Shown here one piece after another: positions 220 through 16,732 of a stretch of DNA of 16,732 nucleotides (the stretch's first letter is position 1; the number at the start of each line of letters is the position of its first letter). This DNA is from Entamoeba histolytica HM-1:IMSS (Eukaryota; Evosea; Mastigamoebida; Endamoebidae): positions 1 to 16,732 of the forward strand of contig NW_001915172.1 of NCBI RefSeq assembly GCF_000208925.1. The letters are read 5' to 3'. Position numbers and translations under genes: made by a program. The notes under the pieces were generated by a model. It did not search any database, was not told the origin of the DNA, and saw only the letters and a list, made by a program, of their open reading frames with translations.

Positions 220-711
220 CAATGTCAAACTTTAATTCTTTAATATGAAATGTTGATTGTGTTTATTATATTAAATGAATATGATGAATGAATATCAATA
301 TTATTGTTTATTTGATTTTAAAAAATAATAAATGAATATAAAATAATAAATGAAATAAAATAATGAAGACATTGAAATGATAATGAAATAGAATAATCTA
401 ATATTGAACAAATTAAATAAAGAATAAATTGAATATATCATTATTGTTACTTTATTATTTATTATTTCAATTATTAAATATTAATAAATTATTATTCATG
501 AATATTTAATTGATTGATATTTTATAATTTCATTTTCATTTTATTTAATAAATGAAATATAAATAATAAATGAATGAATAATAATTTAATATATGAAATA
601 ATAAAAAGAAAAGAAAGATAAATAATAAAGAAATATGATGTATTTAATATATAATATAATTTATTATCAAATATAATAATATCAAATGATGATTTATTTT
701 TATTTCAAAAT

Positions 712-770
712 ATTTTGCATCAATAAAAATGTTGCTAAATATTTTGCATCATTAAATTTTGCATCATTAA
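712..770. repeat. Tandem ATTTTGCATCATTAA repeat
   Basis: The 15-base unit ATTTTGCATCATTAA occurs twice in perfect tandem at 741-755 and 756-770. A one-mismatch copy lies at 712-726, and a decayed piece (AATTTGCATC) near 802. This is a small minisatellite with no detectable coding role. Confidence 0.75.

Positions 771-2105: not shown

Positions 2106-2114
<9 letters not shown>

Positions 2115-2138
<24 letters not shown>
2115..2138. repeat. (ATT)8 microsatellite
   Basis: Eight uninterrupted ATT units lie just outside the outermost part of the left ITR that can be matched. It is an ordinary microsatellite, but it lies 36 bases from the point where comparison with the right arm stops. Confidence 0.85.
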
Positions 2139-2969
2139 TATTGAATAAATTATTTTTGATTTTCTTCTTTTGAAATATATAATTTATTTTATTTATTCAA
2201 TTTATTTAATATTATGAAATTTATTCTATTTGTTTATTTATTTACTTCTTTATAATATCTATTTATTTGATTAAATTTATCATGTTTCTTTTTGCTTTTT
2301 TAATATATTTTAATTTATGAAATATTTATTTTCTTATTTTTATTTATTTCTTTTTTATAATTATTTTTTATGGTACAATTTATTATTAGTATGTTAATTT
2401 GTATATTGTATATTATTATTTCTTCATTCATTTGGTTATTTATCATTTATTTATATTTTGTTTTATACCATATTCTGTTTGTAGAAAATATAATTCTTTA
2501 ATTCTTTGACTATTTCATATCTAATCATTTATTCACGTTTCTCGTGTTTATAACTTATTATTCTCTCTAATATTTAAAATCATGTTATTTTTATTATAAT
2601 TTATTATAATTATTTATTTTTAATCAATCTAAAAGAATGAAATTAGTATATATTAATTCATTTGTGTAAATATTAAAATGGAGATTATATTTTGATTCAT
2701 AACAACATAAGAATGTATAGATTTTTCATTTGAAATAAAGATAATAAATGAAAAGAAATAGAAAATGGAAATAAAAAGAATGAATAATAAATAATAAATA
2801 AAAAAGAAGAAATAGAATATGATTAAAAGAATAATAGAAGAATAATATAAATAATAAGAAAATAGAAGAAAATAAGACATAATGATAATAAACAAGAATT
2901 AGATATAATAAAAGAAATTAAACGATATAAAGAAGAATATAAATAATAGAAATATGTCAGAAGAAGAAA

Positions 2970-3023
2970 AAATATTAATAATTTGTGATTTTCTCCGGAG
3001 AAAATCACAAATTATTAATATTT
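2970..3023. repeat. Perfect 54-bp palindrome, left ITR
   Basis: Two 27-base arms meet without a spacer between 2996 and 2997, with the central sequence CTCCGGAG. The right ITR has the same 54-bp palindrome with centre CTACGTAG, so one base pair has changed on both arms at once. The palindrome marks the border between the almost identical outer ITR and the diverged inner ITR. It could extrude as a cruciform or fold as a terminal hairpin when single-stranded. A role in replication, end resolution or Rep binding is inferred. Confidence 0.95.
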
Positions 3024-3040
3024 CAAATTGAAATGACAAA

Positions 3041-3060
3041 GTGTTCTAAAAATAGAACAC
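3041..3060. repeat. Hairpin GTGTTCTA-AAAA-TAGAACAC
   Basis: Eight-base perfect arms surround a four-A loop. The right ITR keeps the hairpin at 15845-15862 with seven-base arms, although the sequence around it differs between the copies. Confidence 0.8.
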
Positions 3061-3117
3061 AACATTGAACATAAAAATGATTGTAATGACGTGTCAACTA
3101 AAAATAGAAATAGAACA

Positions 3118-3135
3118 TGACGTGGCAACACGTCA
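3118..3135. repeat. Hairpin TGACGTG-GCAA-CACGTCA
   Basis: Seven-base perfect arms flank a GCAA loop. The counterpart at 15771-15788 has one mismatch in the stem. The ACGT core recurs nearby and in the promoter region 13406-13618, so it may be a repeated binding site. Confidence 0.8.
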
Positions 3136-3248
3136 GAAATATTTATAGAAATAGATTGATGACGTAATGAAACGTAATCAAATAAAAATAGAATTATGGT
3201 ATAGATAACACAAAAATCTAAAAGTCAGAATGAAAAACTAAAAATGAA

Positions 3249-3264
3249 CTGACCGAAAGGTCAG
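3249..3264. repeat. Hairpin CTGACC-GAAA-GGTCAG
   Basis: Six-base perfect arms flank a GAAA loop, followed by CTGACTCACTGACC. The same hairpin with flanking words lies at 15643-15658 in the right ITR. GTCAGTG also occurs outside the ITRs at 3373-3379 and 15344-15350, making it the best candidate for an iterated Rep-binding word near both ends. Confidence 0.8.
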
Positions 3265-3411
3265 CTGACTCACTGACCAAATTTATAGTAAAATTATAAT
3301 AAAAATATTATAAAATATAATAAAAATATATAGTCATATATATAAATATATATATATATTTTGGACCTCAAAAGTCAGTGTTGAATTATTTATGAAACAC
3401 TCTCTGACCAT

Positions 3412-3431
3412 ATTGTGTTAAATAACACAAT
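3412..3431. repeat. Inverted repeat ATTGTGTTA-AA-TAACACAAT
   Basis: Nine-base perfect arms with a two-base spacer lie just inside the left ITR and downstream of the minus-strand spike gene. It could help end that transcript or be a binding site. No equivalent was found inside the right ITR. Confidence 0.7.
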
Positions 3432-3451
3432 TTGTTAATTTCTTTTGCTCG

Positions 3452-3545
3452 ATTTAATGTTATCAGCCGTCAGGAAATCGTTACATGCACTTCCCTTTGG
3501 TTGTTATTTCACTCTTATTTTCCTGTACAACTGACAACATTAAAT
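3452..3545 (-). other. Long structured element downstream of the 354-aa gene
   Basis: Outer arms at 3452-3466 and 3531-3545 pair at 14 of 15 positions, with the exception able to form G-U. Inner arms CAGGAAA (3471-3477) and TTTCCTG (3519-3525) pair perfectly. They enclose a 41-base loop that is noticeably less AT-rich than the surroundings. The inner element is asymmetric, with TTGTA opposite ACGG. On the minus strand it starts about 15 bases after the stop of the 354-aa gene, so it would lie in the 3' untranslated RNA. It may be a structured RNA or a DNA element. It matches no ribozyme or riboswitch class I know. Confidence 0.65.
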
Positions 3546-3560
3546 TATTCACAAAAGAAT

Positions 3561-4625
3561 TTAATTACCTAGTGCTTTCCAACGGTTTGAGAAAAGTGAA
3601 GTTGGCAAATATGAATATGCTGCTGTATCTTTTCTGAATGCTATTTTCAATGAATCTTCTTGTTGTGCCATTTCATCATCAGAGTTCGATGCTATAAAGA
3701 ATATGCTGCCCCAATTTATTGCATTAGCGACGAGTATTGGAACAAGTAATGCCTTTTCCCCCGCAGCTAAGAAGATTTCTCCTTCAAATATGAATCGGGG
3801 TTCTAATTTCCCATTATTTGCGAATTTTAACGAAAGGCAGCTTTTAGAACTTGGTAGAGTTATATAAAACGGTCTAAGTGTATGACTAGATTTTACGAGT
3901 GTCGTTTCTTCGGAGTAAGGAATGTTGAGTTCCGACCATGTAACCTGTTCCGTGTTTGTAGGAAGGTTTATTATGTTGGTAGGATAGTTAATTGGAAAAG
4001 CTTCGGTTCCACTCGAATAATATAGCTTATTGAATGTATGTTTTTCTTCTGGGATGTTCGTGGTTATGGTAATTTTTGAAAAACCATAGTAGTTTGAATC
4101 CGGAGTGTAAGTTGCTGTTGCGTTTTCCTGTATTGTTATGTCTTTTGCTTGTAGAGCAGGTTGTACGTTTATTGATGCATTGACGGCATTTAAACCATAA
4201 TGATTTTCATCCGGTTTAAGAAGGTAATTTCCGTTATTTGTAAACGTGTGTGTCAGTGTTTGAAGAGGAGGGTTGACATCCGTTGTTATCGAAACTTGAC
4301 CGAAGGTATGATTTGGTTCTGGTAAGAAGGTTTGTTGGCCGTTCTGGTTTATCAATTTTACTAACATATCTTCTGTTTTAGGAGGTACATCGACTTTGAG
4401 GTTTACTTCTTTTATTCCATCATAATCAGTTGGTGTCTGAATTGTATAATTTCCATTCTGTGTTATGTAAGAAGATAGAGTTATAGTATTTATTGGCTGT
4501 TTTGTTTCTAAATCTGGTATATTTGTTAGAATAATTTTTTCTTTTTCGGAAATTATTTCAAGTGAATCCTGGTTCGATTTATTGCATGTTTTTATGAGGT
4601 TTGTTAGGTTTATCTCTGTTTCCAT
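3561..4625 (-). CDS. Repeat-bearing spike/attachment-like protein (354 aa)
   Basis: Three parts can be seen. An N-terminal segment (1-45) matches the 208-aa neighbour: a TE..LT.LI.TCN start, then EKEKIILTNIPDL. Four beta-type repeats of about 38 residues follow (about 50-81, 88-119, 126-156, 163-192), with a pattern like T.NGNY...P..YDG...V...V. A C-terminal domain of about 125 residues (from W230) shares WSELNIP and a closing LFS..WK with the neighbour. Repeats of this kind are common in phage tail proteins and bacterial surface proteins, where they form stalks. I infer a particle-surface attachment protein with a stalk between two conserved ends. There is no signal peptide or membrane span. 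It lies 49 bases after the 208-aa gene on the same strand, in a less AT-rich stretch. The ATG at 4625 is the only sensible start. Function is not proven. Confidence 0.8.
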   Translation of the reverse strand: METEINLTNLIKTCNKSNQDSLEIISEKEKIILTNIPDLETKQPINTITLSSYITQNGNYTIQTPTDYDGIKEVNLKVDVPPKTEDMLVKLINQNGQQTFLPEPNHTFGQVSITTDVNPPLQTLTHTFTNNGNYLLKPDENHYGLNAVNASINVQPALQAKDITIQENATATYTPDSNYYGFSKITITTNIPEEKHTFNKLYYSSGTEAFPINYPTNIINLPTNTEQVTWSELNIPYSEETTLVKSSHTLRPFYITLPSSKSCLSLKFANNGKLEPRFIFEGEIFLAAGEKALLVPILVANAINWGSIFFIASNSDDEMAQQEDSLKIAFRKDTAAYSYLPTSLFSNRWKALGN

Positions 4626-4674
4626 TGGTTATAATGTTTATTGAGATGAATTAAATAACTAGTCAATTAAAAGT

Positions 4675-5301
4675 TTAAACTTCCTTGTTGAAGTATTTAT
4701 TCCAAATCTCATCAAAAAGACCGGGAGAAACTGATGATATTCCCCCATTAATTTCCAGGTCTATTTCAATGAATTGCTGGTCCGAGTTTTGTTCTCTTCC
4801 CCCGCTTTCTAATGTTAATAATAAACGTTTAGTCGAATCATTATAATTTAATCTATAAGGAAATATTATTATGTTTTTTTGAGGTGTGATATTGAACCAT
4901 TGATTTTTGTATGCGCCGAAATGGATTGCGTGTGTTTTCAAGTCGAAGCTCATTACCACGTAGAGTATTCCACTTCCTTCTGTAATCATTATTTCATGTT
5001 CATCGTCGTCTTTCATTGTTAGAAATGTCGCGGTTGAAGTTGGAATGTTTAGAGATTGCCATGTTTGAGTGTTACCATTTTCAGATGTTATGATTATATG
5101 ATTAGTTGGTTGTTCATTTATTTGTATTTGTTTTTCGTCATTGTCTGGATTAATTCCTGTCAGTTTTATCCTGTTTATTACGAGTAAGCTTGGTATATCT
5201 TTTAGAGTTATTGTTTCTTTTTCCAAAACAATGTCGTATTGATTCATTTGGAGGATATTACAAGTGTTTATTAGGTCTTTTATACTCACTTCCGTGTTCA
5301 T
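4675..5301 (-). CDS. Paralogue of the spike-like protein, lacking the repeats (208 aa)
   Basis: Residues 1-40 match the 354-aa protein (LI.TCN near residue 10, EKETITLKDIPSL near 27-39). The C-terminal domain from W81 to the end has nearly the same length (about 127 residues) and starts with WQSLNIP, ending GLFDEIWNKYFN. The four repeats of the larger protein are missing and replaced by a linker of about 30 residues. The pair therefore looks like a duplication followed by gain or loss of a stalk, and could form short and long versions of one surface structure, or a base and a fiber. It is transcribed divergently from the 577-aa capsid-like gene with only 40 bases between the start codons. There is no signal peptide or membrane span. 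The biochemical role is unknown. Confidence 0.8.
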   Translation of the reverse strand: MNTEVSIKDLINTCNILQMNQYDIVLEKETITLKDIPSLLVINRIKLTGINPDNDEKQIQINEQPTNHIIITSENGNTQTWQSLNIPTSTATFLTMKDDDEHEIMITEGSGILYVVMSFDLKTHAIHFGAYKNQWFNITPQKNIIIFPYRLNYNDSTKRLLLTLESGGREQNSDQQFIEIDLEINGGISSVSPGLFDEIWNKYFNKEV

Positions 5302-5336
5302 TGATATTCTCAGTTTCTCTGGGATCTTGTAATATC
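5254..5336. repeat. Spaced inverted repeat GATATTACAAG / CTTGTAATATC
   Basis: Eleven-base perfect arms lie at 5254-5264, inside the start of the 208-aa gene, and 5326-5336, in the divergent promoter. Both arms contain TATTAC, the core of the CRESS-virus origin nonamer, in opposite orientations, but the first three bases of the nonamer do not fit. A regulatory or origin role is speculative. Confidence 0.55.
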
Positions 5337-5341
5337 AGTTT
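5302..5341. promoter_or_regulatory. 40-bp divergent promoter
   Basis: Only 40 bases separate the ATG of the 208-aa gene (minus strand) from the ATG of the 577-aa gene (plus strand). They contain TGATATT at 5302-5308 and its complement AATATCA at 5331-5337, placed nearly symmetrically about the centre. There is no clear TATA box inside it, so promoter elements must lie within the coding starts or leaders must be very short. Confidence 0.6.
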
Positions 5342-7075
5342 ATGTCTTTTTCATCTAATTCGACGTTTAAACACAAGAAATATGGACCAACTAAAGTCAA
5401 TGTTGATATTGCAAAACGCAATCAGAGACAAGAGCTTACTGTTACTATTCCGGTGTCAACTGAATGGAGAGGTGCAATGAGACATATCGGGGGAAGAGAT
5501 TACAGTGATGTCCATACCATTTCGAGTTTATCCATGCTCGCTGGTTCCAGGCAATTTATAGAAATGTGTGATTGTTTTGATCAATTTAAAATTATGGATG
5601 TTCATATTTGTGGCGATGTTAGTAAAGGAGTATCCACATTAATGAATTTTAGAGTGTGTTTTATAAAGAGTATTTCACTTCAGGTGAGTATTGATAATGG
5701 TTCAAATTGGACAGATATCGATGCTGCTGAATTATTAGTTGATGCGAATCATGTGTATTTTGAAGAAGGTCAGGCTGGCGAATTTATTGAATATTATAAT
5801 GGGAATTTTTATATCGGAAAACCGGAACATGGTGCTGGTTATCCGATAATTGCCACGCAAGTTCTTAGTTTTCCAACCGTTTATGGTCTGGCTAGTCGTC
5901 GTACTGTTCCTCCCGGATTTTTTACTCCGAGTCCCACGGGAGTTTCGTATGTTGAGCCTAGTTTTGATGTTCTTTCTTCTTATTCTTCTTTTATATATCA
6001 AAGTAAATTACCTGGTGCCAGTTTACATTTATCACTTGATGTTGCTGGAGTATCTTCGAGTGAAAAAATGATGACAACCCCCACTATGATGGCGGGAAAG
6101 TTATATAAATTTATTCCGGAGAATCAAAATGGACGTTTTTTCCCTTTTATTATGTATGGTGCCAAAGCTACTCTTCCTACTGGTGCTGGTGATATTACAG
6201 ATGCTCTTTCTTTTATTGATGATGGTGGTATTTCTTGGTCTGGTAATGTGGGAATACCTCAAGAAGAAGAGGAAATTATTTTGGATAATGCTAATGTTGA
6301 TTTACAGGATGTTATTCGTGATAATGTGAAAATAAAAGTTCGTGTTGGTCGTGGTATTGTAGTTGGAGGATTTCAGGGATCGGATGCCGCGGATGTTGAA
6401 GCTGCATATAAACAAGAACTTGCTAATCATACCACCGTTGATACTGATGGTTCGTATATTATGAAAATTATGGGGTATATTACAGTGAGATTTAAGCAAT
6501 TGCGTTCATCTCCTCTCGAGATTGTTGAAGCATATAATTTTGTTCGTTGTCAGTCATCTTGGAGAAATCCAACGACTGGCGAGGTCGCATCTCATGACAG
6601 TGTAATTTCGTTAAATGGTTTAGGACAATTTGTTCAAGACGGTGTTAGTGGGTTTGTTATTGAACGTGGTGATGGAGAGTCGTGGACGGATGCATTGAAG
6701 CGATATGGCGTTGAAAACATTCCAGTTGATACTTTCTTGACTCTCGGCTCTCTTGCTGAAGGAACGGGTATTACTTCTTATGCATGTAATATGGTTAAAA
6801 AAGGAGTTAAGAATGTAATTGGTCCATTAGTTGAAAGTGCCATTTCTGATGCTGTACCTGGTTATAATACTGCTAAGGTGTTGGTGGGATATGCTTATAC
6901 TGGTATTTCTGAAGGTATGGAGTTTATTGATAATAATACGTATTTGAGTGCTGGTCGAGATGCTTTGGAATCTGTCTTAATTGGTGGGTTGAGGAAAGTT
7001 GCAGGTGATAAAGTTGTTGATTTTTGTGGTAATGTTACTTCATTACTTTCAAAGACTATATCACTCTTTAATTAG
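5342..7075 (+). CDS. Large jelly-roll-like capsid protein with hydrophobic C-terminal domain (577 aa)
   Basis: The N-terminal part has the outline of a CRESS-type capsid jelly roll and parallels the 317-aa protein: a beta-rich start, FDQFKIMDVHI (79-89) against YDQFKLNAVRA, an SSYSS segment (212-216), and a late strand GYITVRFKQLRSS (378-390) against WQFDVTLRGLRK. It carries large insertions between strands (about 115-205 and 250-370). The last 115 residues are a separate region rich in Gly, Ala, Val and Ser with amphipathic helices (about 483-577), resembling membrane-active or assembly tails. It lacks the arginine-rich N terminus, having only a mildly basic start (K10-K29). Clean ATG at 5342, TAG stop, 33 bases to the next gene. 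I infer a second capsid or minor vertex protein derived from a duplicated capsid gene. The paralogy rests on pattern, not alignment scores. Confidence 0.72.
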   Translation: MSFSSNSTFKHKKYGPTKVNVDIAKRNQRQELTVTIPVSTEWRGAMRHIGGRDYSDVHTISSLSMLAGSRQFIEMCDCFDQFKIMDVHICGDVSKGVSTLMNFRVCFIKSISLQVSIDNGSNWTDIDAAELLVDANHVYFEEGQAGEFIEYYNGNFYIGKPEHGAGYPIIATQVLSFPTVYGLASRRTVPPGFFTPSPTGVSYVEPSFDVLSSYSSFIYQSKLPGASLHLSLDVAGVSSSEKMMTTPTMMAGKLYKFIPENQNGRFFPFIMYGAKATLPTGAGDITDALSFIDDGGISWSGNVGIPQEEEEIILDNANVDLQDVIRDNVKIKVRVGRGIVVGGFQGSDAADVEAAYKQELANHTTVDTDGSYIMKIMGYITVRFKQLRSSPLEIVEAYNFVRCQSSWRNPTTGEVASHDSVISLNGLGQFVQDGVSGFVIERGDGESWTDALKRYGVENIPVDTFLTLGSLAEGTGITSYACNMVKKGVKNVIGPLVESAISDAVPGYNTAKVLVGYAYTGISEGMEFIDNNTYLSAGRDALESVLIGGLRKVAGDKVVDFCGNVTSLLSKTISLFN

Positions 7076-7108
7076 AACTTTTAATTGAATCTTGTTTTCA
7101 ATCATTTG

Positions 7109-8062
7109 ATGCAACGACGTGTTAGTAGACGTAATTATCCAAGAAGAGGTTATAAAAAACGCACAACTTTGAAACGACAAGCATTTGGTAATTTTGCAAG
7201 TGCTATGCAGCAACGAGATAGTACTAATGTAGTTATTAGTATGCAAGAGGACGTTTCTATTAATGTTCCAGTTGGTGCAAATGAAGGTACAATGTTGAGG
7301 AATGTCACTGCTTTGATGACTTCTACACAATATTTTCATAATTATATGGGAATGTATGATCAATTCAAGTTAAATGCTGTCAGAGCATCCATGGAAATGA
7401 CATTCATTGGAAATCAGTTGTTAAATAGTGCAACATTCCCTTCTATATGTACAGCATGGGATCGTAATGGTGTTAGAATTAATACTGCTGTTATTAATAA
7501 TACGAGATATTTCCAATTACCTGCTTATTCTTCTGTTTCTTCGTATTCTAGTGCAAATGAAAAGACATTGTATTATGGTAGTAGATGGGGAGTAGTGAGA
7601 CAATTAGATGCGGCATCTATGATGGAAAAGTCTATGTATTTACCAACAACTAATACTAGAGATGTACTTAGTATGGATAATATGTATAGTGCATGGAATC
7701 CTCAATTACTAATCGCTATAAAAACTCCTCAAGCTGTTAATGTTGCCAATGCTTGTACTCTAACAATTCATTGGCAATTTGATGTTACATTGAGAGGTTT
7801 GAGAAAAGTACTTGTTACTGATGAAAATTCATTTAAACCTTATGCCGGGTTTATTGGTTATGCTCGCAATAATAATGGACTTGTTGTACCTAGTAATATT
7901 CCTAATGCTCAACCTCCGTATATTTTAGTTGGAGCTATTGCTAATGGATTTGCTCCATCAATTAATCCTGAGACTGTTTATGATAATGCCAATGATGCAT
8001 ATTCTAACGGTGGGTTGGTAATACCAAATGATGGATTGCCAGAACATAATGTTAATCTCTAA
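7109..8062 (+). CDS. CRESS-type capsid protein with arginine-rich N terminus (317 aa)
   Basis: The start is basic (residues 2-23 hold about 12 Arg or Lys), as in circovirus-like capsids, where the arm binds genomic DNA. A beta-rich jelly-roll core follows. FHNYMGMYDQFKLNAVRASM (76-95) fits the conserved strand C/D region, and LTIHWQFDVTLRGLRK (218-233) fits the last strand. A glycine- and asparagine-rich tail (about 240-317) follows, probably exposed. The length is typical of CRESS capsids. I chose the ATG at 7109; the in-frame TTG at 7085 would add eight residues before the basic arm and is unlikely. It follows the 577-aa gene by 33 bases, with GAACTTTT at 7075-7082 in the gap, and precedes the coiled-coil gene by 29 bases. 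Probably the major capsid protein. Confidence 0.82.
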   Translation: MQRRVSRRNYPRRGYKKRTTLKRQAFGNFASAMQQRDSTNVVISMQEDVSINVPVGANEGTMLRNVTALMTSTQYFHNYMGMYDQFKLNAVRASMEMTFIGNQLLNSATFPSICTAWDRNGVRINTAVINNTRYFQLPAYSSVSSYSSANEKTLYYGSRWGVVRQLDAASMMEKSMYLPTTNTRDVLSMDNMYSAWNPQLLIAIKTPQAVNVANACTLTIHWQFDVTLRGLRKVLVTDENSFKPYAGFIGYARNNNGLVVPSNIPNAQPPYILVGAIANGFAPSINPETVYDNANDAYSNGGLVIPNDGLPEHNVNL

Positions 8063-8091
8063 TTGATTATTGAACTTTATTTGGTTATTTG

Positions 8092-10566
8092 ATGTGGAGA
8101 CGAAGGAGAAGACAATATAGTTATAACAAACGAAATAACCGTTATTATAATAGTGCTGGAAAGTATGTTTCCAGACAATATGATAAACAACCCATTGATA
8201 ATGAACAACAGTTTTATCAATTTGGTGGAAGACCTTATAATCCACCACTTCCAGATGAATCTCTTCAAAATATAGTTAGTAGGGAATTGGATAAACGATT
8301 AGGTGAAGAAGGCAGTTTTTATAAAGAAAATAATAAACTACAGAAAAAGATTGTTGATGATAATAAAAGTCTGTATAGAGCTATTCTACGTGCTCAACAG
8401 GATAATCTTAAAAATGTCCATCATATTGAACGTTTAGAGTCTGCAATTAAAAAATATAAACAAAATGCTGAACGATTTATTACAGTTGAAGATTTGGTTC
8501 GTGAAAATAGAGAATTGATAAATGAAAATGTGAATAAGATCAATGAATTAAAATTACAATTTGGTGATTTTATTCCTCGTAATGTTCGTACTCAAATAAA
8601 GGATCTTACAGAACAAAATTCAGTATTGAAACGTCGTGTATCTCAAATTGAAAGGAATAATGGGATATTTGTTACTCGTGCAGAGTTAAATGCTTTCAGA
8701 GATTTCTATGAACCTCTAATTGAAAAACAAGGTTCCAGATTACAAAATATCGAAGAACGAGTTAATGTCATGAGAGGATTAATTGATAAATATCCTGCTT
8801 TTGAGAATGAATTACAGAATCTATCTAATGCTTATCGGAATATGGGAATGGTATTTTCTAAACAATATGATGATTTAAATTCTCAATTTAGACATTTGAA
8901 TACAATAAGTCCAGAAAATTTAAATGCTGTTAGAGCGGATTTGGAATTATATAAAAACCAACTTCAAAAAGAAATACAATTACTTTATAAGACTAAATTG
9001 GATGTTAATGATGCTGCTAAGTGGTTTGATCAGACATTACCCAATACATATAATCGAAATGATGTAAATGCTTTATTAGGACAAATTAATGATTATGTAA
9101 AGAAACAAGAAGGAATTATTAAGGATATTGATTCAAGACTTGCTGAACAGAACCGATTTTCATTGAAACGACTTGATGCTGTTACAGATAAGGTTAATTT
9201 ATATACAGAACGTCTTGATAAATTAGAAAAGAAATCAGAAGAATGGAAAAATGTTTTTGATGTTGTTAATAGATTACCTGAACATATGAAAATACCATTA
9301 AATGATTTACTTAAAGATTTATTGGAAGAAAGAGAACCCGCTAATTTCACTAGAAGAATGAGAATACTTGAGAGTGAAGTGAAAGCTCTTAATTCATCAA
9401 TACATAAAATTGGTAGTGGTAAAACAGAAGAAATTACTCGTGTAATAAGTTTGGTGAATAGTATACAAAATGATATGAATTCATATAAAAAGAAGGGACA
9501 AATAATAAATGCAGGAGAAGAACAATTTTATAGTGATGATCCGGATATGAGACAGAGTAAAAAGGCATTTGAAAATACACGCCAATTATTAATTTCTCGT
9601 TTTAAAGATGTTAATAAGTATATAAAAGATAATGAAGTTCGAGGCGCGCAATATAAAGATGTAATAAGTAATGTTAATGCGATTATGAAACAATTTGAAA
9701 ATATTGCTCGGTCTTTTAATGCTGAATATGTTGTTCCTGTTAATGATATGCAAAATTTCCATGAAAGTATGATGATGGTTTTGAGTGGTATTATGGATGA
9801 TAAGTCTAATGTTGATGAAATTCGTTATAAATTGGATGTCGCTTCTCACGATTTTGATAAATTGCGAGGTTCTTGGAATGATAATAGAAATGCAGGTGCT
9901 AAGATTATTGCAAATAAATTAGCTGAACGAAATGGTATAAATATCAATGATTTTGTTGAATATGCTCAGAGTTTTGCTGTACGTGGTGGTGCAGATTCTT
10001 ATGTTTCTGAGAGTGTAATACAACCCAGAAAAAGAATGTTAAGAGATGATATTTCTTCTGATTCAAATTCTGGATTTGACAAACGTGGAGATGGAACAGT
10101 TACACCGAGAGAAAGAAATTACGGATATGAAATAATAGGTAGACATAAAATTGAACCTAAATATGATGCTATTCCCGTTGCTTCGGATTATAGACAGAAG
10201 ACAAATGATTTGATGCGTTCATCTTATAATGAATATGATTATGAGAAGTGGTACAAAGAAGCTAGAGGAAGAATAAAAGAACGAGTAAAGAAATATTATG
10301 ATAATCCGGAAAATGAAAGAGAAGTTGTTGATATTAATGGACATATTACTGAATCTATTCCGAGAGGTGTGTATAACATGATTGAGGCAGATGAAATCGG
10401 ACAATATGAAAAGCGTGTGAGTGCATCAAAAAGAAACAATTTAATACTAAAACGTACTATGGAACGTATTAACAAACATGCATGGGAAGATGCAATGAAG
10501 AAAGATAAAACGGTGAAACCAAGAAAAATAACAAAAATTTCAATGGTAAAAGATAAAAAGAAATAA
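8092..10566 (+). CDS. Long coiled-coil protein with basic ends (824 aa)
   Basis: The N terminus is arginine-rich (MWRRRRRQY, then RNNR), reminiscent of a capsid DNA-binding arm. About 45-430 is a long run of charged heptad-like helices rich in Glu, Lys, Gln, Asn and Leu. A mixed helical region follows (430-640), then a charged, Tyr- and Arg-rich tail ending in a Lys cluster (about 800-824). There is no signal peptide or membrane span. I do not recognise a family. Its place directly after the capsid genes and its basic ends suggest a structural protein, perhaps an internal nucleoprotein scaffold or a trimeric fiber; both are inferences. It is as large as many whole CRESS genomes can encode. 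I chose the ATG at 8092, preceded by GAACTTT at 8072; the upstream TTG is not needed. Base composition is very AT-rich (14 G+C in 8401-8460). Confidence 0.8.
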   Translation: MWRRRRRQYSYNKRNNRYYNSAGKYVSRQYDKQPIDNEQQFYQFGGRPYNPPLPDESLQNIVSRELDKRLGEEGSFYKENNKLQKKIVDDNKSLYRAILRAQQDNLKNVHHIERLESAIKKYKQNAERFITVEDLVRENRELINENVNKINELKLQFGDFIPRNVRTQIKDLTEQNSVLKRRVSQIERNNGIFVTRAELNAFRDFYEPLIEKQGSRLQNIEERVNVMRGLIDKYPAFENELQNLSNAYRNMGMVFSKQYDDLNSQFRHLNTISPENLNAVRADLELYKNQLQKEIQLLYKTKLDVNDAAKWFDQTLPNTYNRNDVNALLGQINDYVKKQEGIIKDIDSRLAEQNRFSLKRLDAVTDKVNLYTERLDKLEKKSEEWKNVFDVVNRLPEHMKIPLNDLLKDLLEEREPANFTRRMRILESEVKALNSSIHKIGSGKTEEITRVISLVNSIQNDMNSYKKKGQIINAGEEQFYSDDPDMRQSKKAFENTRQLLISRFKDVNKYIKDNEVRGAQYKDVISNVNAIMKQFENIARSFNAEYVVPVNDMQNFHESMMMVLSGIMDDKSNVDEIRYKLDVASHDFDKLRGSWNDNRNAGAKIIANKLAERNGININDFVEYAQSFAVRGGADSYVSESVIQPRKRMLRDDISSDSNSGFDKRGDGTVTPRERNYGYEIIGRHKIEPKYDAIPVASDYRQKTNDLMRSSYNEYDYEKWYKEARGRIKERVKKYYDNPENEREVVDINGHITESIPRGVYNMIEADEIGQYEKRVSASKRNNLILKRTMERINKHAWEDAMKKDKTVKPRKITKISMVKDKKK

Positions 10567-10583
10567 ATTAATTTAATTCTTTC

Positions 10584-12263
10584 TTAATCGTAAATTATGT
10601 CCATATCATCATTTTTCCCTCCAAGAGGTGCGCGTTCTAATGGTCCGTCTGAATAATCATCAACATCATCATCGTCATCAACATCATAGTCTTCTTCTTC
10701 CATAGTATTGTCGTTGGGAGTGTTGTTAAAATATTTACTTCTCTGCTTTTCATAAGTTGTCATTGTATCTCTTTCAAAGCGATTAAAATCGTCTTTTGAC
10801 ATACCTAATGGATTATCTAATTGATACGATTCAAGGTCTTCGTTCCATTCTTCAATCATGCTGTCATTATTCTCCTGAGATTCATCTAGTATTCTTTTCA
10901 TCTTCTTGTCCTTTCTCGATTCTTTAATCTTTTCATTAAATTCTTCTAAGAAAGTATTGTCATAGCCCAGCGTTTCTAATAAGTTTGTTACTCTATTGTA
11001 GAATGTTTGATGTTCGGTGGGACTGGTTTCTTCTGTTGTTTGACTTTCTGGCATATCTTTAATTTCATTAAATTTTTCTTCTAAGTCGTTCATTGCGTTG
11101 TAATTTTCTTCTTGTTTTTCCATGTCTTCTGAATCATTTTCAGATTCTTCTGGATCTTTATAAAGTTTTTTATTTATAAATACCGTCAATGAATTTCTCT
11201 TCCACCAATTATAACCACCGTTATACTTCATTAAACTTACTACACTTTCATATTCTTTCTGATTTAATAAATGGATACAAGGACGGGCGGTTACAATAGC
11301 TTTGGAATATTTTATATTTACCATTGTTTTCTTATTGATAGTGGATGTAATAGCTTTTATTAATCTTATTAAATTCTTATCATAGTTGATGTCATCAAAT
11401 AGTATAAATCTATAATTTTGTTCTTCGTCATAAGCGTCGAAGAGAGAATCTCCTCTTAACATAAATGTATTAAATTTTAAGAATATTTCTTGAATGGCAA
11501 ATTCCGTTTTACCGGTTTTAGTTGGTCCAACGATGAATAAATTTCCCATTCTATAACGATCGCCTTGAGCGCATTTAATCCATTTACGTATTGTTTGAAC
11601 TTCCTCCATTTCTTCTCTCCAAGGTAATAAATCGTTTCTAGTATAATTTTCAATATCGAGTCTTCTCGCATTTTTACGCATCCAACGTGATTTAATTTTA
11701 CCTTCTTGTTGGATATATTTTTCTGCGTTAATATCCAACAAATTCTTTTCTAATTCTCCGTAATCTTGGTATGAATCTAAATCGGATAAAGCATTTATCC
11801 ACGTTTGTTTAAGATCTTCTTTAAGCGTTGGGTCTCCTTTGAACATTCCTTTACCCCTCTTTGTAATGTATTCTATAATCTTAGAAATGTCGCCCGTCCT
11901 TGATGTATATGAATTAACGCGCGAATACCAGAACGTTTGTTGTGTTCCGTCTGAATGTTTAATAATTGGGCGAGCTTTGAATGAACGAGGCCTTCTGGTT
12001 ACAATTATAACATGTTGATGGGGATGAGGATTGACCTCGTCTTGTTCCACTGGAGAAATATGTGCGTATTGTAGGTTATTAGTTGGTCCGGCAAATCGGT
12101 CTATTAATTCTTTAAATTGTGTCTGGTTTGATATTTCATCTCCCCAAAGAGTTAAATACATGTATCTAGAAGTAAAATGGACAGCTTTATTATGAGAGAG
12201 AGCTTCTTTTAAATGTAATTTATCTGTTTTGGATGGTTCCGAATTAAATGTATTTGTTGACAT
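10584..12263 (-). CDS. Replication initiator Rep: HUH endonuclease plus SF3 helicase (559 aa)
   Basis: A nickase domain comes first: a likely motif I (YMYLTLWGD, 34-42), motif II H82-Q83-H84 of the HUH type that binds the metal ion, and motif III Y132-I-T-K135, where Tyr132 would form the covalent link to nicked DNA. The YxxK form points to CRESS-DNA viruses rather than parvoviruses. The SF3 helicase follows: Walker A GPTKTGKT (246-253), Walker B FILFDD (286-291), the motif C region IVTAR (323-327), and a likely arginine finger in WWKRN (353-357). Motif C lacks its usual Asn. A 190-residue extension is unusual for CRESS Reps and ends in an Asp/Glu tail (521-540). I start at ATG 12263 because a TATA box (12289-12296) lies just upstream; ATG 12326 would add 21 residues and overlap the divergent gene. 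It ends 17 bases from the convergent 824-aa gene. Confidence 0.92.
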   Translation of the reverse strand: MSTNTFNSEPSKTDKLHLKEALSHNKAVHFTSRYMYLTLWGDEISNQTQFKELIDRFAGPTNNLQYAHISPVEQDEVNPHPHQHVIIVTRRPRSFKARPIIKHSDGTQQTFWYSRVNSYTSRTGDISKIIEYITKRGKGMFKGDPTLKEDLKQTWINALSDLDSYQDYGELEKNLLDINAEKYIQQEGKIKSRWMRKNARRLDIENYTRNDLLPWREEMEEVQTIRKWIKCAQGDRYRMGNLFIVGPTKTGKTEFAIQEIFLKFNTFMLRGDSLFDAYDEEQNYRFILFDDINYDKNLIRLIKAITSTINKKTMVNIKYSKAIVTARPCIHLLNQKEYESVVSLMKYNGGYNWWKRNSLTVFINKKLYKDPEESENDSEDMEKQEENYNAMNDLEEKFNEIKDMPESQTTEETSPTEHQTFYNRVTNLLETLGYDNTFLEEFNEKIKESRKDKKMKRILDESQENNDSMIEEWNEDLESYQLDNPLGMSKDDFNRFERDTMTTYEKQRSKYFNNTPNDNTMEEEDYDVDDDDDVDDYSDGPLERAPLGGKNDDMDIIYD

Positions 12264-12315
12264 GTTTGAATTGATGTTATTGTGTGTGTATTTATAGTAA
12301 CTTTTGAGGTTTTGA
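12264..12315. promoter_or_regulatory. 52-bp divergent promoter of rep and the 201-aa gene
   Basis: Between the two start codons lies a single TATA-like element, TATTTATA on plus and TATAAATA on minus (12289-12296), 20-26 bases from each ATG. It could serve both directions. AACTTTTG follows on the plus side (12299-12306). If the box works as in other eukaryotes, the leaders are only a few bases long. Confidence 0.65.
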
Positions 12316-12921
12316 ATGCGTGTCACTGAGTTGTCGTTGATGTCATTGAATGGAGTTGAACTATTTAATCGTCAGAACTTTGAAAGAAATTATTCGATGT
12401 CTTCTTTTAATAGGGTGCATGATGATATTTATACTGACGTTGCCTCAATGGATTTAGTAGACGTTTATACTGAATCTCAGATTGAGCCGGGTGTCAATGG
12501 ATTATTAAAGAGATACTTCTATCTTATGAAAGAACCTTCGTACATAGACTGGAAATTGAATAATAGCGAAAAAGTAAAAACTGACGAGGAACGGCAAGAT
12601 TTGATTAGACAAAAGCTTGAGAGTATAAGACGCTGTGAAAGAATTTCACTATTTCTCGATGAAAGTGGTATCGGATTAAATAGCTTTAATGCTTGGAACA
12701 GGAAATTTGCTAAGAAGAAAGGACTTAAAAGCGTTGAACAATCTGCAATTCCTGATTGGGTGAGAAAATATTCGCGGAAAATTGAAATGGTTGTTGATGA
12801 TGATAATGTGGATGTTGTTGAAGAAATAAGTGAGCAAAAATCTAAACGAGCTTTACTCAAACCATTAAAGTCTAAAGATGAAGAGAAGAAACCTAAGAAA
12901 GCCGAGACTAAAGATAATTAA
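12316..12921 (+). CDS. Protein of unknown function with basic C-terminal tail (201 aa)
   Basis: I do not recognise a family. The protein is mostly helical and charged: a mixed N terminus (1-60), a helical core (about 62-165) with charged helices around DEERQDLIRQKLESIRRCER and aromatic anchors (W79, W124, W145), an acidic patch near 158-168, then a lysine-rich, probably disordered tail (170-201). There is no membrane span or signal peptide. It is transcribed divergently from rep through a shared 52-bp promoter, so early expression with Rep is plausible, perhaps as a replication accessory or regulator; that is inference from position only. Start at ATG 12316; later Mets at 12340 and 12397 are alternatives. 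Stop TAA followed by a second TAA. Confidence 0.78.
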   Translation: MRVTELSLMSLNGVELFNRQNFERNYSMSSFNRVHDDIYTDVASMDLVDVYTESQIEPGVNGLLKRYFYLMKEPSYIDWKLNNSEKVKTDEERQDLIRQKLESIRRCERISLFLDESGIGLNSFNAWNRKFAKKKGLKSVEQSAIPDWVRKYSRKIEMVVDDDNVDVVEEISEQKSKRALLKPLKSKDEEKKPKKAETKDN

Positions 12922-13099
12922 TAACTTTTTATTCTTTTATTTTAATTGTTTAATAATATATAATTGGATAATAATATCAGTGTTTGATTAAGTTAAATAA
13001 ACCCGACGAAGGAGGGTTACATAAGTTAATAAAAAAAAATACGAATACCAAATAAATCTTTAATTGATAATTAGTAAAAAAAAAAATAATAAAAATTAA
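12922..13099. other. Convergent intergenic region with one GC-rich hairpin
   Basis: It separates the convergent 201-aa and 101-aa genes. It is A-rich with long A runs (13031-13038 and 13077-13086), which read as T runs at the end of the minus-strand gene. AACCC (13000-13004) and GGGTT (13014-13018) form a five-base stem around a nine-base loop, GACGAAGGA, the only GC-rich patch here. Both transcripts probably end in this stretch; no known terminator or poly(A) signal class is assigned. Confidence 0.55.
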
Positions 13100-13405
13100 T
13101 CACTTAAAGTGTATAGCATATTCTCTGGTATAGAAAAATCTGAATTGATCTAGAAGTCCTAAAAGTTTTTCATTATCTATTATTAATACGTGAGCATCTT
13201 CTATTAAATAATCTAAGTAATTGAGCAATGTGTCATTGTAATTAAATTCGTTGATAAACGAAACGCGTCTTATCCAAATGGCGACAGCGTGAATTAGACT
13301 ATCTCCTTCTGGTGATAAATTGGTCGACGCTAAGTATTTGATGGTGATTGATATTTCGGCAGCTAATTCTTTTAAAACGCTTTTAACATAAGTTGAGGAG
13401 TTCAT
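13100..13405 (-). CDS. Small helical protein of unknown function (101 aa)
   Basis: No family is recognised. It is predicted to be nearly all helix: amphipathic helices at about 5-25, 35-55, 58-78 and 80-95, with hydrophobic positions spaced for a helical bundle. There is no convincing membrane span. The start at ATG 13405 is preceded at 31 bases by GTATTTAAAG on the minus strand, a good TATA-like box, which supports this as a real gene. The stop is TGA. It is divergent from the 108-aa gene across the repeat-rich region 13406-13618 and about the same size as that protein, but they show no clear sequence relation. Confidence 0.72.
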   Translation of the reverse strand: MNSSTYVKSVLKELAAEISITIKYLASTNLSPEGDSLIHAVAIWIRRVSFINEFNYNDTLLNYLDYLIEDAHVLIIDNEKLLGLLDQFRFFYTREYAIHFK

Positions 13406-13618
13406 AATGTTGATAATATTGTTAATTTTTCAGTGCTTTAAATACGTTTGAATACGTGTTGTTCAGTAATAGTTTTGTCTGTTTGGTGACGTGTATTGTC
13501 TGTTCGCGTTGAGTTATGCCTGTTTGTGTCTGTTTATGACGTTTTAAGGTGTTTGTTGTCTGTTTTGTTCTATATTTAAGTAAACTGAAAATAAAACAAT
13601 AATTATATAATATAATTG
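13406..13618. promoter_or_regulatory. Divergent promoter with phased repeats
   Basis: This 213-base region between two divergent small genes is richer in G than its surroundings. It holds GTATTTAAAG on the minus strand (13436-13445), a tandem ten-base repeat AATACGTTTG/AATACGTGTT (13441-13460), five TGTCTGTT words (13476-13566), GTGACGTG (13486-13493), TATGACGT (13535-13542), and TATATTTAAG (13571-13580), which could be the TATA box of the plus-strand gene. It looks like a regulated promoter or a replication origin with iterons. Confidence 0.7.
13476..13566 (+). repeat. Five phased TGTCTGTT iterons
   Basis: Copies start at 13476, 13497, 13517 (as TGCCTGTT), 13527 and 13557. The steps are 21, 20, 10 and 30 bases, all close to whole turns of the DNA helix, so one protein could bind every copy on the same face. 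Iterons of this kind mark Rep or regulator binding sites in many replicons. Confidence 0.8.
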
Positions 13619-13945
13619 ATGTCTTCAACTGTTGATGATAAGATGGAATATTGTTCTTTATCTGATTTAACTGTCGGTGCTTTGCGCGATTTCTATTTGG
13701 ATCTTGATGATTTACATGATTTATGTTCTACCATGGTTGATTATTATGAAAAAGAACAAAGAACTACTCTTGGAAGTGATAAATATTTAAATCTTATTGA
13801 AAGTGAAGTTTTCTTGGTTAAAGATATTGCTAGCAGTGCACGTGAAATGTTACAAAAATATAAAACTGTTATTAATGCATTTAAACGGTGTCGTGATGAT
13901 AGAGAATTAGCACGAAAAGAATTAAGTAAACCAAAAAAAAAATAA
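13619..13945 (+). CDS. Small acidic-then-basic helical protein of unknown function (108 aa)
   Basis: No family is recognised. An acidic N-terminal half (DLDDLHDL near residues 27-34) is followed by helical segments (about 45-100) with heptad-like spacing, and it ends in a lysine cluster (KPKKK) encoded by a run of A. There is no membrane span. I use ATG 13619; the TTG three bases earlier is not needed. A TATA-like box lies 39 bases upstream and five phased repeats before it, so it may be one of the most tightly controlled genes. A regulator or small coiled-coil adaptor is possible but unproven. It ends 19 bases before the convergent 51-aa membrane protein gene. Confidence 0.72.
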   Translation: MSSTVDDKMEYCSLSDLTVGALRDFYLDLDDLHDLCSTMVDYYEKEQRTTLGSDKYLNLIESEVFLVKDIASSAREMLQKYKTVINAFKRCRDDRELARKELSKPKKK

Positions 13946-13964
13946 TTAATTATTTCTTGTTTAA

Positions 13965-14120
13965 TCATGTTAATATTTTAATTATTAATTCGGCTGCAAT
14001 GATTCCTATGAGTACCACAAATAATAAAATTGCTACTATTAGAGAATAACATAATCTTAACAATAATTGGGGTTTTCTATTTTCAATTTTATTTACTGAC
14101 TCGTTTTCTGTTTCTACCAT
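13965..14120 (-). CDS. Small single-span membrane protein (51 aa)
   Basis: The frame runs from ATG at 14120 to TGA at 13965. A polar N terminus of 18 residues (MVETENESVNKIENRKPQ) is followed by one hydrophobic stretch (about 19-49) with a single Arg, Cys and Tyr near its start and a central LIVAILLFVVLIGIIAA. No other protein explains the stretch, and it fills the gap between the kinase and the 108-aa gene, 28 bases after the kinase stop on the same strand, so the two may share a transcript. By topology it would sit in a host or virion membrane with the N terminus cytoplasmic or inside. Small proteins like this act as viroporins or membrane anchors in other viruses; here that is only inference. 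Confidence 0.72.
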   Translation of the reverse strand: MVETENESVNKIENRKPQLLLRLCYSLIVAILLFVVLIGIIAAELIIKILT

Positions 14121-14148
14121 GATATAAACGTTAAATGAGAATAACCAG

Positions 14149-14883
14149 TTAATTAATTTGATTTAGCTTTTGTTGTACCAATTCAGTATAAAATAACGCA
14201 TATTGATTATTTAAGATATATAAATCTTCTTTTGATTTGTATGATTCTATTTCCGGTGTTCTATTTCTTTTTGTTAATCGTTTGAATTGTGTATTTGTAT
14301 CACTACAGAATAAGAAGACATAAATACTTCCATTTGATAATCCTAATAATAATGGATGAATAAATGTATTAACCAATGCTTCTTCAATTACTTCTGTAGA
14401 AATTCTACTCGTATCTACGTTAATTACACCAACATTCTTATTAGTTAATTGAGGAATCTGATATCTTCTACTTAATTGTTCTATTCTTAATCTGAGCTTT
14501 AGACGTTGTTCATTACTTATTGAATTATTGGTTGCGCAAAATACTTCCAATGATTCGATGGGATGTCTATCCCATATTACAATATCAGCATCTTCATAAA
14601 TACTTGAATTTAGTTGAGTTTCATAACAATCTAATATATAATTCTGAAATTCAAAATTACTTATTAAACCATCGTGTAAAAGTTTTAATTTAAATTCTCC
14701 ATCGGTGTTGTAATCAATGTATTCTTTTATATATGCAGCGGGAGTATAATAGTCGAGATATTCAAATAATAAATTGCATAACATTGTTTTACCCGTGCTA
14801 ATACTACCACTTATAAATACATGTTTTTTATTGTAAGCGAATGTTTTATATTTGTTGATGCATTCAGAATTATTAACATTCAT
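14149..14883 (-). CDS. Deoxynucleoside kinase (244 aa)
   Basis: It would phosphorylate deoxynucleosides with ATP to feed dNTP pools, in the cytosol. All landmarks of the dCK/dGK/TK2-type family are visible: P-loop GSISTGKT (26-33), a likely catalytic Glu54, a substrate-binding Gln80 in EFQNYI, the DRH motif (105-107) that replaces the more usual ERS/DRS and is also seen in herpesvirus-type thymidine kinases, and the LID arginines R202, R206 and R208 with E211. A final helix YILNNQYALFY (222-232) completes the pattern. Length is normal for the family. Substrate preference cannot be read off. The start is the ATG at 14883, with an AT-repeat promoter upstream. Such kinases are frequent in large dsDNA viruses and unexpected beside CRESS-type genes. 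It probably shares a transcript with the 51-aa gene. Confidence 0.92.
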   Translation of the reverse strand: MNVNNSECINKYKTFAYNKKHVFISGSISTGKTMLCNLLFEYLDYYTPAAYIKEYIDYNTDGEFKLKLLHDGLISNFEFQNYILDCYETQLNSSIYEDADIVIWDRHPIESLEVFCATNNSISNEQRLKLRLRIEQLSRRYQIPQLTNKNVGVINVDTSRISTEVIEEALVNTFIHPLLLGLSNGSIYVFLFCSDTNTQFKRLTKRNRTPEIESYKSKEDLYILNNQYALFYTELVQQKLNQIN

Positions 14884-14935
14884 CGTTTATGTTGTTAATT
14901 TATATATATATATTTATATATTTATTAGTTCTTTT
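14884..14935 (-). promoter_or_regulatory. AT-repeat promoter of the kinase gene
   Basis: On the minus strand, AGAACT is followed by TATA-rich sequence (14901-14927) ending about 17 bases before the kinase ATG. The (TA)n tract offers several TATA boxes. No operator stands out. Confidence 0.5.
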
Positions 14936-15541
14936 TATTATTATTATTACGTGTTTTGTGTAATGATTACGTATTATTTTTAATATTATATTATATAATT
15001 ATTTATTCTATAATTTAATTTTGTCGTCATTTTAATTCCTCGTTACTGTCGTAATACCTCACCTTCTCTTGTTGTTTATTGGTTGTTTTGTGTTTCTCGG
15101 CTTCTTCGCGCTTCTATATTGCATTTTTTTTTCTCGATTCTCGTTTCTATTCTTCATTGGTATGATGTTTATCATTCTCTTGACTTTTTTGTTGACTTTT
15201 GTATGTTTATTCGACTTCTTCGCGCTTCTTTGTTGCATTTTTCTTCTTATTTCTGCACCTTTCTTTCACCCTAATTCCTCACCGTTTGAAAATTTTGAAC
15301 GTTATTTTCGACCTTGCCACATAAGCATTTCTATATAAACTGGGTCAGTGATCTAATATTTCAGTTGCGCTGACTTTTATGTTATACTCCATACGTTGTT
15401 ATTTTATTTATCGTTTTAATTTTTAATTGTTATTCATTATACTAACATTTTTAGTGTTTCTTTTTTATTCCCATAATTTTATGGTATTTATATCACTTCT
15501 CTCGATATCCGTTTCATTATCATTCTTGTTCTATTTATAAA
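14936..15541. other. Non-coding region between kinase gene and right ITR
   Basis: No gene is supported in these 606 bases. The two longer plus-strand frames near 15069-15338 start with TTG, are purely hydrophobic and come from T-rich sequence. The region holds a nonamer-like TATTATTAC (14942-14950) followed by GTAAT (14960-14964), which can pair with ATTAC; two ACGT words; a 28-base direct repeat; GTCAGTG at 15344-15350; and the inverted repeat TCAG-TTGCG-CTGA (15361-15373). It may contain an origin or a packaging signal, but no direct evidence shows this. Confidence 0.6.
15101..15242 (+). repeat. Direct repeat around CTTCTTCGCGCTTCT, 114-bp period
   Basis: CTTCTTCGCGCTTCT at 15101-15115 recurs at 15215-15229, and both continue into TTGCATTTTT at the same spacing, so 28 bases match with two differences (15101-15128 and 15215-15242). 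The CGCG core is conspicuous in AT-rich DNA. The bases between the copies do not match. Confidence 0.75.
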
Positions 15542-15642
15542 TCCAAACATATATATATATATATTATATATGACTATATATTTTTATTATATTTTTAATA
15601 CTTTTTACTATAATTTTACTATAGTTTCGGTCAGTGAGTCAT

Positions 15643-15658
15643 CTGACCTTTCGGTCAG
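15643..15658. repeat. Hairpin CTGACC-TTTC-GGTCAG, right ITR
   Basis: This is the mirror copy of the hairpin at 3249-3264 and is kept perfectly in stem and loop although the neighbouring spacers differ. GGTCAGTGAGTC lies beside it (15629-15640). Confidence 0.8.
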
Positions 15659-15770
15659 TTCATTTTTAGTTTTTCATTCTGACTTTTAAGATTTTTTTGT
15701 TATTCATAACGTTATTCTATTTTTAATTGATCACGTGTTGATGAGTCAATTCTATTTCTATAAATATTTC

Positions 15771-15788
15771 TGACGTGTTGCCGCGTCA
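15771..15788. repeat. Hairpin TGACGTG-TTGC-CGCGTCA, right ITR
   Basis: This is the mirror copy of the hairpin at 3118-3135, with one changed stem position. A further copy of the word, GCCACGTCATC, lies at 15811-15821. Confidence 0.7.
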
Positions 15789-15844
15789 CGTTCTATTTCT
15801 ATTTATAGTTGCCACGTCATCACACTTCCATGTGAACGATGCTG

Positions 15845-15862
15845 TGTTCTATTTTTAGAACA
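15845..15862. repeat. Hairpin TGTTCTA-TTTT-TAGAACA, right ITR
   Basis: This is the mirror copy of the hairpin at 3041-3060. It has seven-base perfect arms and a four-base loop, beside the 54-bp palindrome. Confidence 0.75.
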
Positions 15863-15882
15863 TTCATAATCATTTCAATTTG

Positions 15883-15936
15883 AAATATTAATAATTTGTG
15901 ATTTTCTACGTAGAAAATCACAAATTATTAATATTT
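15883..15936. repeat. Perfect 54-bp palindrome, right ITR
   Basis: Two 27-base arms meet between 15909 and 15910 with centre CTACGTAG. Compared with the left copy (centre CTCCGGAG), the second base pair from the centre is changed in both arms, so perfect symmetry is kept. See the left copy for its possible role. Confidence 0.95.
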
Positions 15937-16732
15937 TTTCTTCTTCTGACATATTTCTGTTATTTATATTCTTCTTTATATCGTTTAATTTCTTTTATTA
16001 TATCTAATTCTTGTTTATTATCATTATGTCTTATTTTCTTCTATTTTCTTATCATTTATATTATTCTTCTATTATTCTTTTAATCATATTCTATTTCTTC
16101 TTTATTATTTATTATTTATTATTCATTCTTTTTATTTTTATTTTCTATTTCTTTTCATTTATTATCTTTATTTCAAATGAAAAATTTATACATTCTTATG
16201 TTGTTATGAATCAAAATATAATCTCCATTTTAATATTTACACAAATGAATTAATATATACTAATTTCATTCTTTTAGATTGATTAAAAATAAATAATTAT
16301 AATAAATTATAATAAAAATAATGTGATTTTAAATATTAGAGAGAATAATAAGTTATAAACACGAGAAACGTGAATAAATGATTAGATATGAAATAGTCAA
16401 AGAATTAAAGAATTATATTTTCTACAAACAGAATATGGTATAAAACAAAATATAAATAAATGATAAATAACCAAATGAATGAAGAAATAATAATATACAA
16501 TATACAAATTAACATACTAATAATAAATTGTACCATACAAAATAATTATAAAAAAGAAATAAATAAAAATAAGAAAATAAATATTTCATAAATTAAAATA
16601 TATTAAAAAAGCAAAAAGAAACATGATAAATTTAATCAAATAAATAGATATTATAAAGAAGTAAATAAATAAACAAATAGAATAAATTTCATAATATTGA
16701 ATAAATTGAATAAATAAAATAAATTATATATT

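Follow-up and report, generated by a model that had tools for sequence, protein, structure and literature searches.

A putative large provirus with CRESS-type replication and capsid genes and long inverted repeats in Entamoeba histolytica

Contig NW_001915172.1 of the Entamoeba histolytica HM-1:IMSS assembly (C86; the window analysed here is the entire contig, 16,732 bases) holds a Rep of the circular Rep-encoding single-stranded DNA (CRESS) type, two related capsid proteins, a deoxynucleoside kinase, six further open reading frames (ORFs) and long inverted repeats. This element is probably an integrated copy (provirus) of a large Entamoeba virus with replication and coat genes of CRESS-DNA virus descent. 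In the assembly (16.95 Mb, 392 contigs), the element is also present on four sister contigs (C82, C88, C72 and C49), making five copies with C86, and a related second family occurs as well. The best reading is a family of two-capsid proviruses of about 16 kb or more, bounded by inverted terminal repeats (ITRs), on a CRESS replicon, and the element appears to work like such a replicon carrying a larger virion module. Support for this reading comes from the genes present, the long inverted repeats and their kept palindrome, the modelling of one capsid protein as a jelly roll, the CRESS-like fold modelled for the Rep catalytic domain, the five copies, the second family and purifying selection. 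More tentatively, and with somewhat less than even confidence, we propose a new lineage of family rank or above, comprising viruses of at least 16 kb, latent in Entamoeba as proviruses, in which a CRESS replicon grew into a probably linear genome that is bounded by ITRs and encodes two capsid proteins and a nucleoside kinase. An original prediction, made from the letters of this contig, had likewise envisaged an enlarged, CRESS-derived lineage with linear ITR genomes, and is partly supported; its CRESS-type rep and capsid genes and its ITRs stand, and "linear" is not established by these data. The features of the window are as follows (aa, amino acids; SF3, superfamily 3).

1..999, no strand: end of a dispersed host repeat, an ERE2-like transposon; flank, outside the element
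1000..3360, no strand: left inverted repeat; outer part about 10-15% GC, part 2174-3359 inverted at the right
2970..3023, no strand: perfect 54-bp palindrome in the left repeat; candidate Rep origin or resolution hairpin
3087..3129, plus strand: two direct repeats TGACGTGNCAAC, iteron-like; weak evidence
3561..4625, minus strand: gene A, repeat protein of 354 aa; candidate spike or fibre
4675..5301, minus strand: gene B, 208 aa, related to A by blastp
5342..7075, plus strand: gene C, 577 aa, single jelly-roll capsid protein by predicted structure
7109..8062, plus strand: gene D, 317 aa, capsid protein by sequence, with an Arg-rich N-terminal arm; most conserved gene
8092..10566, plus strand: gene E, 824 aa from the ATG, basic N-terminus; putative structural or scaffold protein
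10584..12263, minus strand: gene F, Rep, 559 aa from the ATG; HUH endonuclease and, by motifs, SF3-type helicase
12316..12921, plus strand: gene G, 201 aa, 50-71% identical in the sisters
13100..13405, minus strand: gene H, 101 aa, occurring in family 2 too
13619..13945, plus strand: gene I, small protein, at 12 genomic places (5 in this family, 7 in family 2)
14149..14883, minus strand: gene J, deoxynucleoside kinase, 244 aa; Pfam PF01712 (dNK), E 3.5e-9, 37.2 bits against a cutoff of 27
15549..16732, no strand: right inverted repeat, ended by the contig edge
15883..15936, no strand: 54-bp palindrome in the right repeat; paired change at the centre, CTAC/GTAG instead of CTCC/GGAG

HxH and YxxK are the motif names of HUH endonucleases, and the Rep carries both, with H82-Q-H84 and Y132 (YITK), counted from the ATG, exactly where they had been predicted; in the longer ORF (10584-12326, minus strand), a reading of 580 aa, they are H103, H105 and Y153, with K156. 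The HQH, the Y and K of YxxK and the Walker A residues are invariant in an alignment of 12 rows that includes three relatives at 26-33% identity, and the HxH and the catalytic-motif Y are invariant also in a second alignment of nine rows. Walker A and B residues are conserved in the Rep alignments, as is an N at the position of motif C. In the structural model, the Rep catalytic fold is closest to CRESS Reps, and a parvovirus-type initiator domain is not what the Rep displays. Membership in Cressdnaviricota is supported, on predicted structures, for the Rep catalytic domain and the capsid, and not for genome size.

The two capsid candidates of the original prediction hold, and so does the Arg-rich arm that it had described in one of them (7109-8062, plus strand). 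On its predicted structure, C is a single jelly-roll capsid protein, the type found in Cressdnaviricota. D is, by sequence, a capsid protein: one of its 56 relatives is named "Capsid protein" in UniRef, and its profile matches that of C (probability 87, E 3.7e-6, for this single pair). C and D are also adjacent in E. dispar, as judged by locus tag, and D is carried by some further contigs of 14-28 kb. A scan of GTDB contigs with D found no relative. The N-terminus of A is related to B (blastp of the two sequences, E 4e-7) and, in a search of a small database, to a single family-2 protein (E 7e-5). No family was found above cutoff for A and B in Pfam, NCBIfam and PHROGs scans, nor for E in the family scans; sub-cutoff matches to Cadherin_5, CowN and FlhF were taken as chance. 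The repeated pattern of A resembles that of phage tail fibres, but a link to them was dropped after tblastn with A and B gave no match in 50,697 phage records. The deoxynucleoside kinase is also borne out, by the Pfam match listed above. Further kinase-like ORFs lie on C178, C23, C146, C118, C353 and C257 (27-33% identity to the element kinase) and are either host genes or parts of further elements.

The inverted repeats are longer than the roughly 1.19 kb originally described. The window arms, 2174-3359 and 15549-16732, are indeed alike (95.1% over 1191 columns), the contig end being limiting, and the repeat seems to start at 2174 just because the contig stops at 16732; homology to C82 and C88 continues outward to position 1000. 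The two arms of each sister are also alike and run out at one contig end, over 1828 columns in C72 (99.9%), 1802 in C88 (99.3%), 862 in C82 (99.7%) and 798 in C49 (98.9%), so that each side reaches at least 1.8 kb in C72 and C88. Because an outer arm of 863 bp is 99% complementary between the sides, a chance origin of the inverted repeats is excluded. Among the matches listed, this outer arm occurs at 98-100% identity in 10 places, all within the five element contigs and two of them clipped by contig starts; the further matches listed are palindrome self-matches or AT-rich matches at 65-78%. The left repeat matches the ends of the four sisters mostly at 97-99% out to 3036, and less well further inward. 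The outer noncoding repeats thus mostly differ less (by about 1-3%) than the virion genes do at synonymous sites, as would fit exchange between arms and between copies.

A Rep origin typically looks like a palindrome with short repeats, and the arms contain both. The 54-bp perfect palindrome is present in all 10 arms with an identical centre in nine, and the paired change in the right arm of the window preserves its symmetry. Folded as single-stranded DNA it gives a z-score of -8.7, equalled by none of 200 shuffles. Repeats like TGACGTGNCAAC lie beside it, two per arm; all four matches in the window fall in the repeats (1.07 expected, four reached in 5 of 200 shuffles), the pattern having been picked after viewing the sequence. 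The repeat palindrome may therefore be the Rep origin.

It is also evident that the element is a mosaic. Protein identity between the window and the four sisters is 92-100% in A-E (D 99-100%; E over residues 334-825), whereas it is 67-75% in Rep, 50-71% in G, 34-78% in H, 40-51% in I and 38-57% in the kinase. In bins of 50 bases, identity is 86-100% in all four comparisons at 10,200-10,599 and 40-74% at 10,600-10,799, a sharp drop that coincides with the boundary between E and Rep, and the right repeat is back to 96-100% from about 15,850 except for the bin at 16,100 (84-96%). Bins around 8401-9200 and 13601-14800 were partly or wholly uncovered in the longer-range binned comparison. Since the virion half is shared and the stretch from Rep to kinase is strongly different, the lineage probably evolves by module swapping or homogenising. 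Synonymous divergence in A-E is 0.05-0.32, and the ratio of nonsynonymous (dN) to synonymous (dS) divergence is 0-0.19 in all 20 comparisons (E over codons 334-825; H, I and the kinase lie outside this analysis). The virion genes are thus under purifying selection, the capsid genes being the most constrained (dN/dS 0-0.03 in D). In Rep, synonymous sites are saturated and dN is 0.17-0.23.

The Rep lineages extend beyond this strain and this species, and related ones are found in the sister species E. dispar and E. nuttalli. A protein from strain HM-3:IMSS is 99.8% identical to the window Rep along 559 of 559 residues. Other E. histolytica proteins (HM-3:IMSS, HM-1:IMSS-B and KU27) match the Reps of C82, C88 and C72 at 99.7-99.8%, the partners of C88 and C72 being shorter, whereas the closest protein to the C49 Rep comes from E. 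nuttalli (96.2%). In a Rep tree of 24 rows, with 14 of 21 inner branches well supported and the outgroup P0023 on a very long branch of unsure placement, three groupings carry starred support: C82 (E. histolytica P0012) pairs with P0013 of E. dispar; C49 joins P0010 of E. nuttalli and next P0011 of E. dispar; and C72 (KU27 P0021) pairs with P0004 of E. dispar. These pairings across host species suggest that the lineages are older than the host split or have crossed between hosts.

The related family 2 occupies eight contigs (C11, C48, C69, C123, C142, C174, C189 and C239), with Reps at 23-33% identity. A 505-aa protein is common to all eight; a D homologue (37-40%) is found on six and gene I on seven. 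Among eight loci tested, six match relatives of H and one matches a relative of A. Family-2 proteins start with MCLVKKRKQ and MSYWYRPN. On C239, positions 849-2410 (minus strand) and 7791-9352 (plus strand) form an inverted duplication of family-2 genes that recalls a head-to-head dimer, and an inverted-duplication match of 247 bp at 98% lies within family-2 locus L050. The inverted ends of C11 were considered as a viral repeat of its own and proved to be mostly two dispersed-repeat copies; the same dispersed-repeat end stands at both termini, inverted, as though copying had carried an insertion from one arm to the other. In addition, a lone CRESS-type Rep of 472 aa (29-30% identity to the window Rep) lies between apparent host genes on a 73-kb contig (C335; L044:4593-6011). 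Small CRESS insertions of this type have been described in Entamoeba before (PMC7493932; for this and the other papers cited, statements refer to extracts of their text).

The flanks indicate where the copies reside. Homology of the window to C82 and C88 ends at position 1000, beyond which these two contigs continue together, and bases 1-999 recur at 93-97% identity in at least 40 further places; in three copies compared the match stops at window 999/1000, the same base within one. Six copies of this dispersed repeat have common ends about 1.8 kb apart, and the ERE2 transposon measures 1,936 bp (Lorenzi 2008, PMC2657916); from length and copy number we infer that the repeat is ERE2-like. Because bases 1-999 are a dispersed host repeat, the C86 copy is probably in nuclear DNA. 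Could each contig of 14-17 kb instead be a linear viral or plasmid molecule that ends in inverted repeats and exists beside the chromosomes? Five similar-sized contigs with one element each would fit this, as would the C72 arms, almost identical as far as the contig end, but assemblies also break at long, nearly identical repeats, and the result looks no different. A dispersed host repeat lies outside the C86 inverted repeat. Moreover, contig C56 overlaps the outer end of C82 (1,184 columns, 99.2%) and then continues into different sequence (C56:1150-4200), one stretch of which, possibly ERE1, turns up with 79-82% identity at 38 or more other places, and gene C is also present on a 215-kb contig annotated as E. 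histolytica. These three observations favour copies in nuclear DNA, and free linear molecules are unlikely. Two other candidates were rejected: the ERE1 terminal repeats as the source of the element repeats, on copy number (98-100% at the five element contigs only), and C329 as an integrated copy, suspected from mirror repeats, where the stretches read are apparent host genes and dispersed repeats.

Integration could also reflect a transposon-like element that spreads inside the nucleus only and keeps captured viral genes, as is thought for some Polinton-type elements. The long inverted repeats, the several copies and the alike Rep lineages in three Entamoeba species are compatible with this, but the strong constraint on the capsid genes points to virions, none of the ten ORFs has a Pfam match to an integrase or transposase, and 54 of the 56 D relatives are without Entamoeba assignment, though some may stem from Entamoeba genomes; we regard this explanation as quite improbable. 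Least credible, with very little probability, are dead relics, that is, old CRESS insertions assembled and frozen in the host genome with a large virus never having been a unit. Broken genes in every sister and the lone Rep on C335 speak for relics, yet the gene order is kept in five copies, C and D are neighbours in E. dispar, constraint persists across saturated divergence, and family 2 shares Rep, D and gene I.

Several points weigh against the provirus reading itself. Whereas the window keeps all ten frames open, at least one gene is interrupted in each sister, through decay or assembly errors: Rep in C72, with C and the kinase each split in two; Rep and, close to its start, D in C49; C in C82; and G and the kinase in C88. 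No family was found above cutoff for Rep or D in Pfam and NCBIfam or for C in Pfam, and sequence profiles of the three returned nothing relevant from the PDB. Sub-cutoff matches hint at more than one HUH type, with REP_ORF2-G2P (phage-type) in six of 12 Rep rows (best E 0.00097), RNA_helicase in one of 12 (0.0067) and Gemini_AL1_M for the C11 Rep (0.082). The Rep model is poor in its helicase half (confidence score pLDDT <50), so the SF3 assignment rests on motifs. IMG/VR, scanned with Rep, D and the C335 Rep, yielded no relative. The copies are known as assembled sequence, and among the contigs compared no single copy has host sequence on both sides, so we infer the integration of a complete unit.

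If the element is a provirus, Rep would nick within or beside the repeat palindrome in the nucleus, and the helicase would unwind from there. The inverted repeats may let the ends prime or recombine, keeping both arms alike, and the kinase may raise the nucleotide supply. C and D could jointly form a capsid larger than T=1, the shell type of small CRESS viruses, and A and B could sit on its surface. Copies would settle in AT-rich, repeat-rich nuclear DNA and then decay.

In the open-licence PubMed Central literature, most subscription papers and preprints being outside this search, no description of the element was found. Parvoviridae and Bidnaviridae combine an HUH-SF3 initiator with ITRs at linear genome ends, a pairing that the element recalls through its HUH Rep with SF3-type motifs and its inverted repeats, which in the sisters run out at contig ends. 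Redondoviridae (Vientovirus Rep 9pqq) are among the closest known systems; unlike the element, they have small circular genomes with one capsid gene. Hallmarks of Polintons and Polinton-like viruses are PolB, an integrase, a double jelly-roll capsid and a packaging ATPase, and Polinton-like viruses often have inverted repeats. The ten ORFs give no Pfam match to PolB, integrase, transposase or packaging ATPase; C is modelled as a single jelly roll, and a CRESS-type Rep is present instead. Naryaviridae and Nenyaviridae have small genomes, and none of their members came up when IMG/VR was scanned with the two Reps. In size the element resembles Polinton-like viruses, which are protist proviruses of 14-40 kb (PMC12220804). 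It shares with Naryaviridae and Nenyaviridae the Entamoeba host, a Rep and a capsid gene, and integrated copies across species, but by description these are circular with Rep and Cap, and the element has a 12.2-kb core, ten ORFs, two capsid proteins and long inverted repeats (Kinsella 2020, PMC7493932). Large CRESS viruses likewise join a CRESS Rep to two or three divergent capsid genes, some of tombus type, but their genomes are circular (3.5-6.2 kb with two capsid genes, one of 6.6 kb), and the extract mentions no long inverted repeats (Tisza 2020, PMC7000223). From such published extracts, Cressdnaviricota genomes are nearly all below 3.5 kb, with exceptions to about 6.6 kb; the element lies outside that range, its core measuring 12.2 kb and its repeats adding at least 1.8 kb on each side. 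ERE1, compared by description, is AT-rich with terminal inverted repeats of 2,221 bp, but it has one 369-aa ORF and is dispersed (Lorenzi 2008, PMC2657916), whereas the element repeat is confined at 98-100% to five contigs.

Transmissible E. histolytica particles were described in 1972, presumably induced from latency (PMC3820453), and a 2023 review gives them as polyhedral and 70 nm with a blank genome entry (PMC9973342). The element is a sequence candidate for this never-sequenced polyhedral virus, the tie being the host and the capsid genes only, and the old question of the 1972 particles becomes testable through it. That one virion module goes with five very different replication modules in a single host genome offers a natural experiment on how viruses evolve by modules. 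A parallel path of enlargement has been proposed for bidnaviruses. If the provirus reading is true, the element would show how CRESS viruses, regarded as tiny circles that a small shell keeps small, can escape that size limit.

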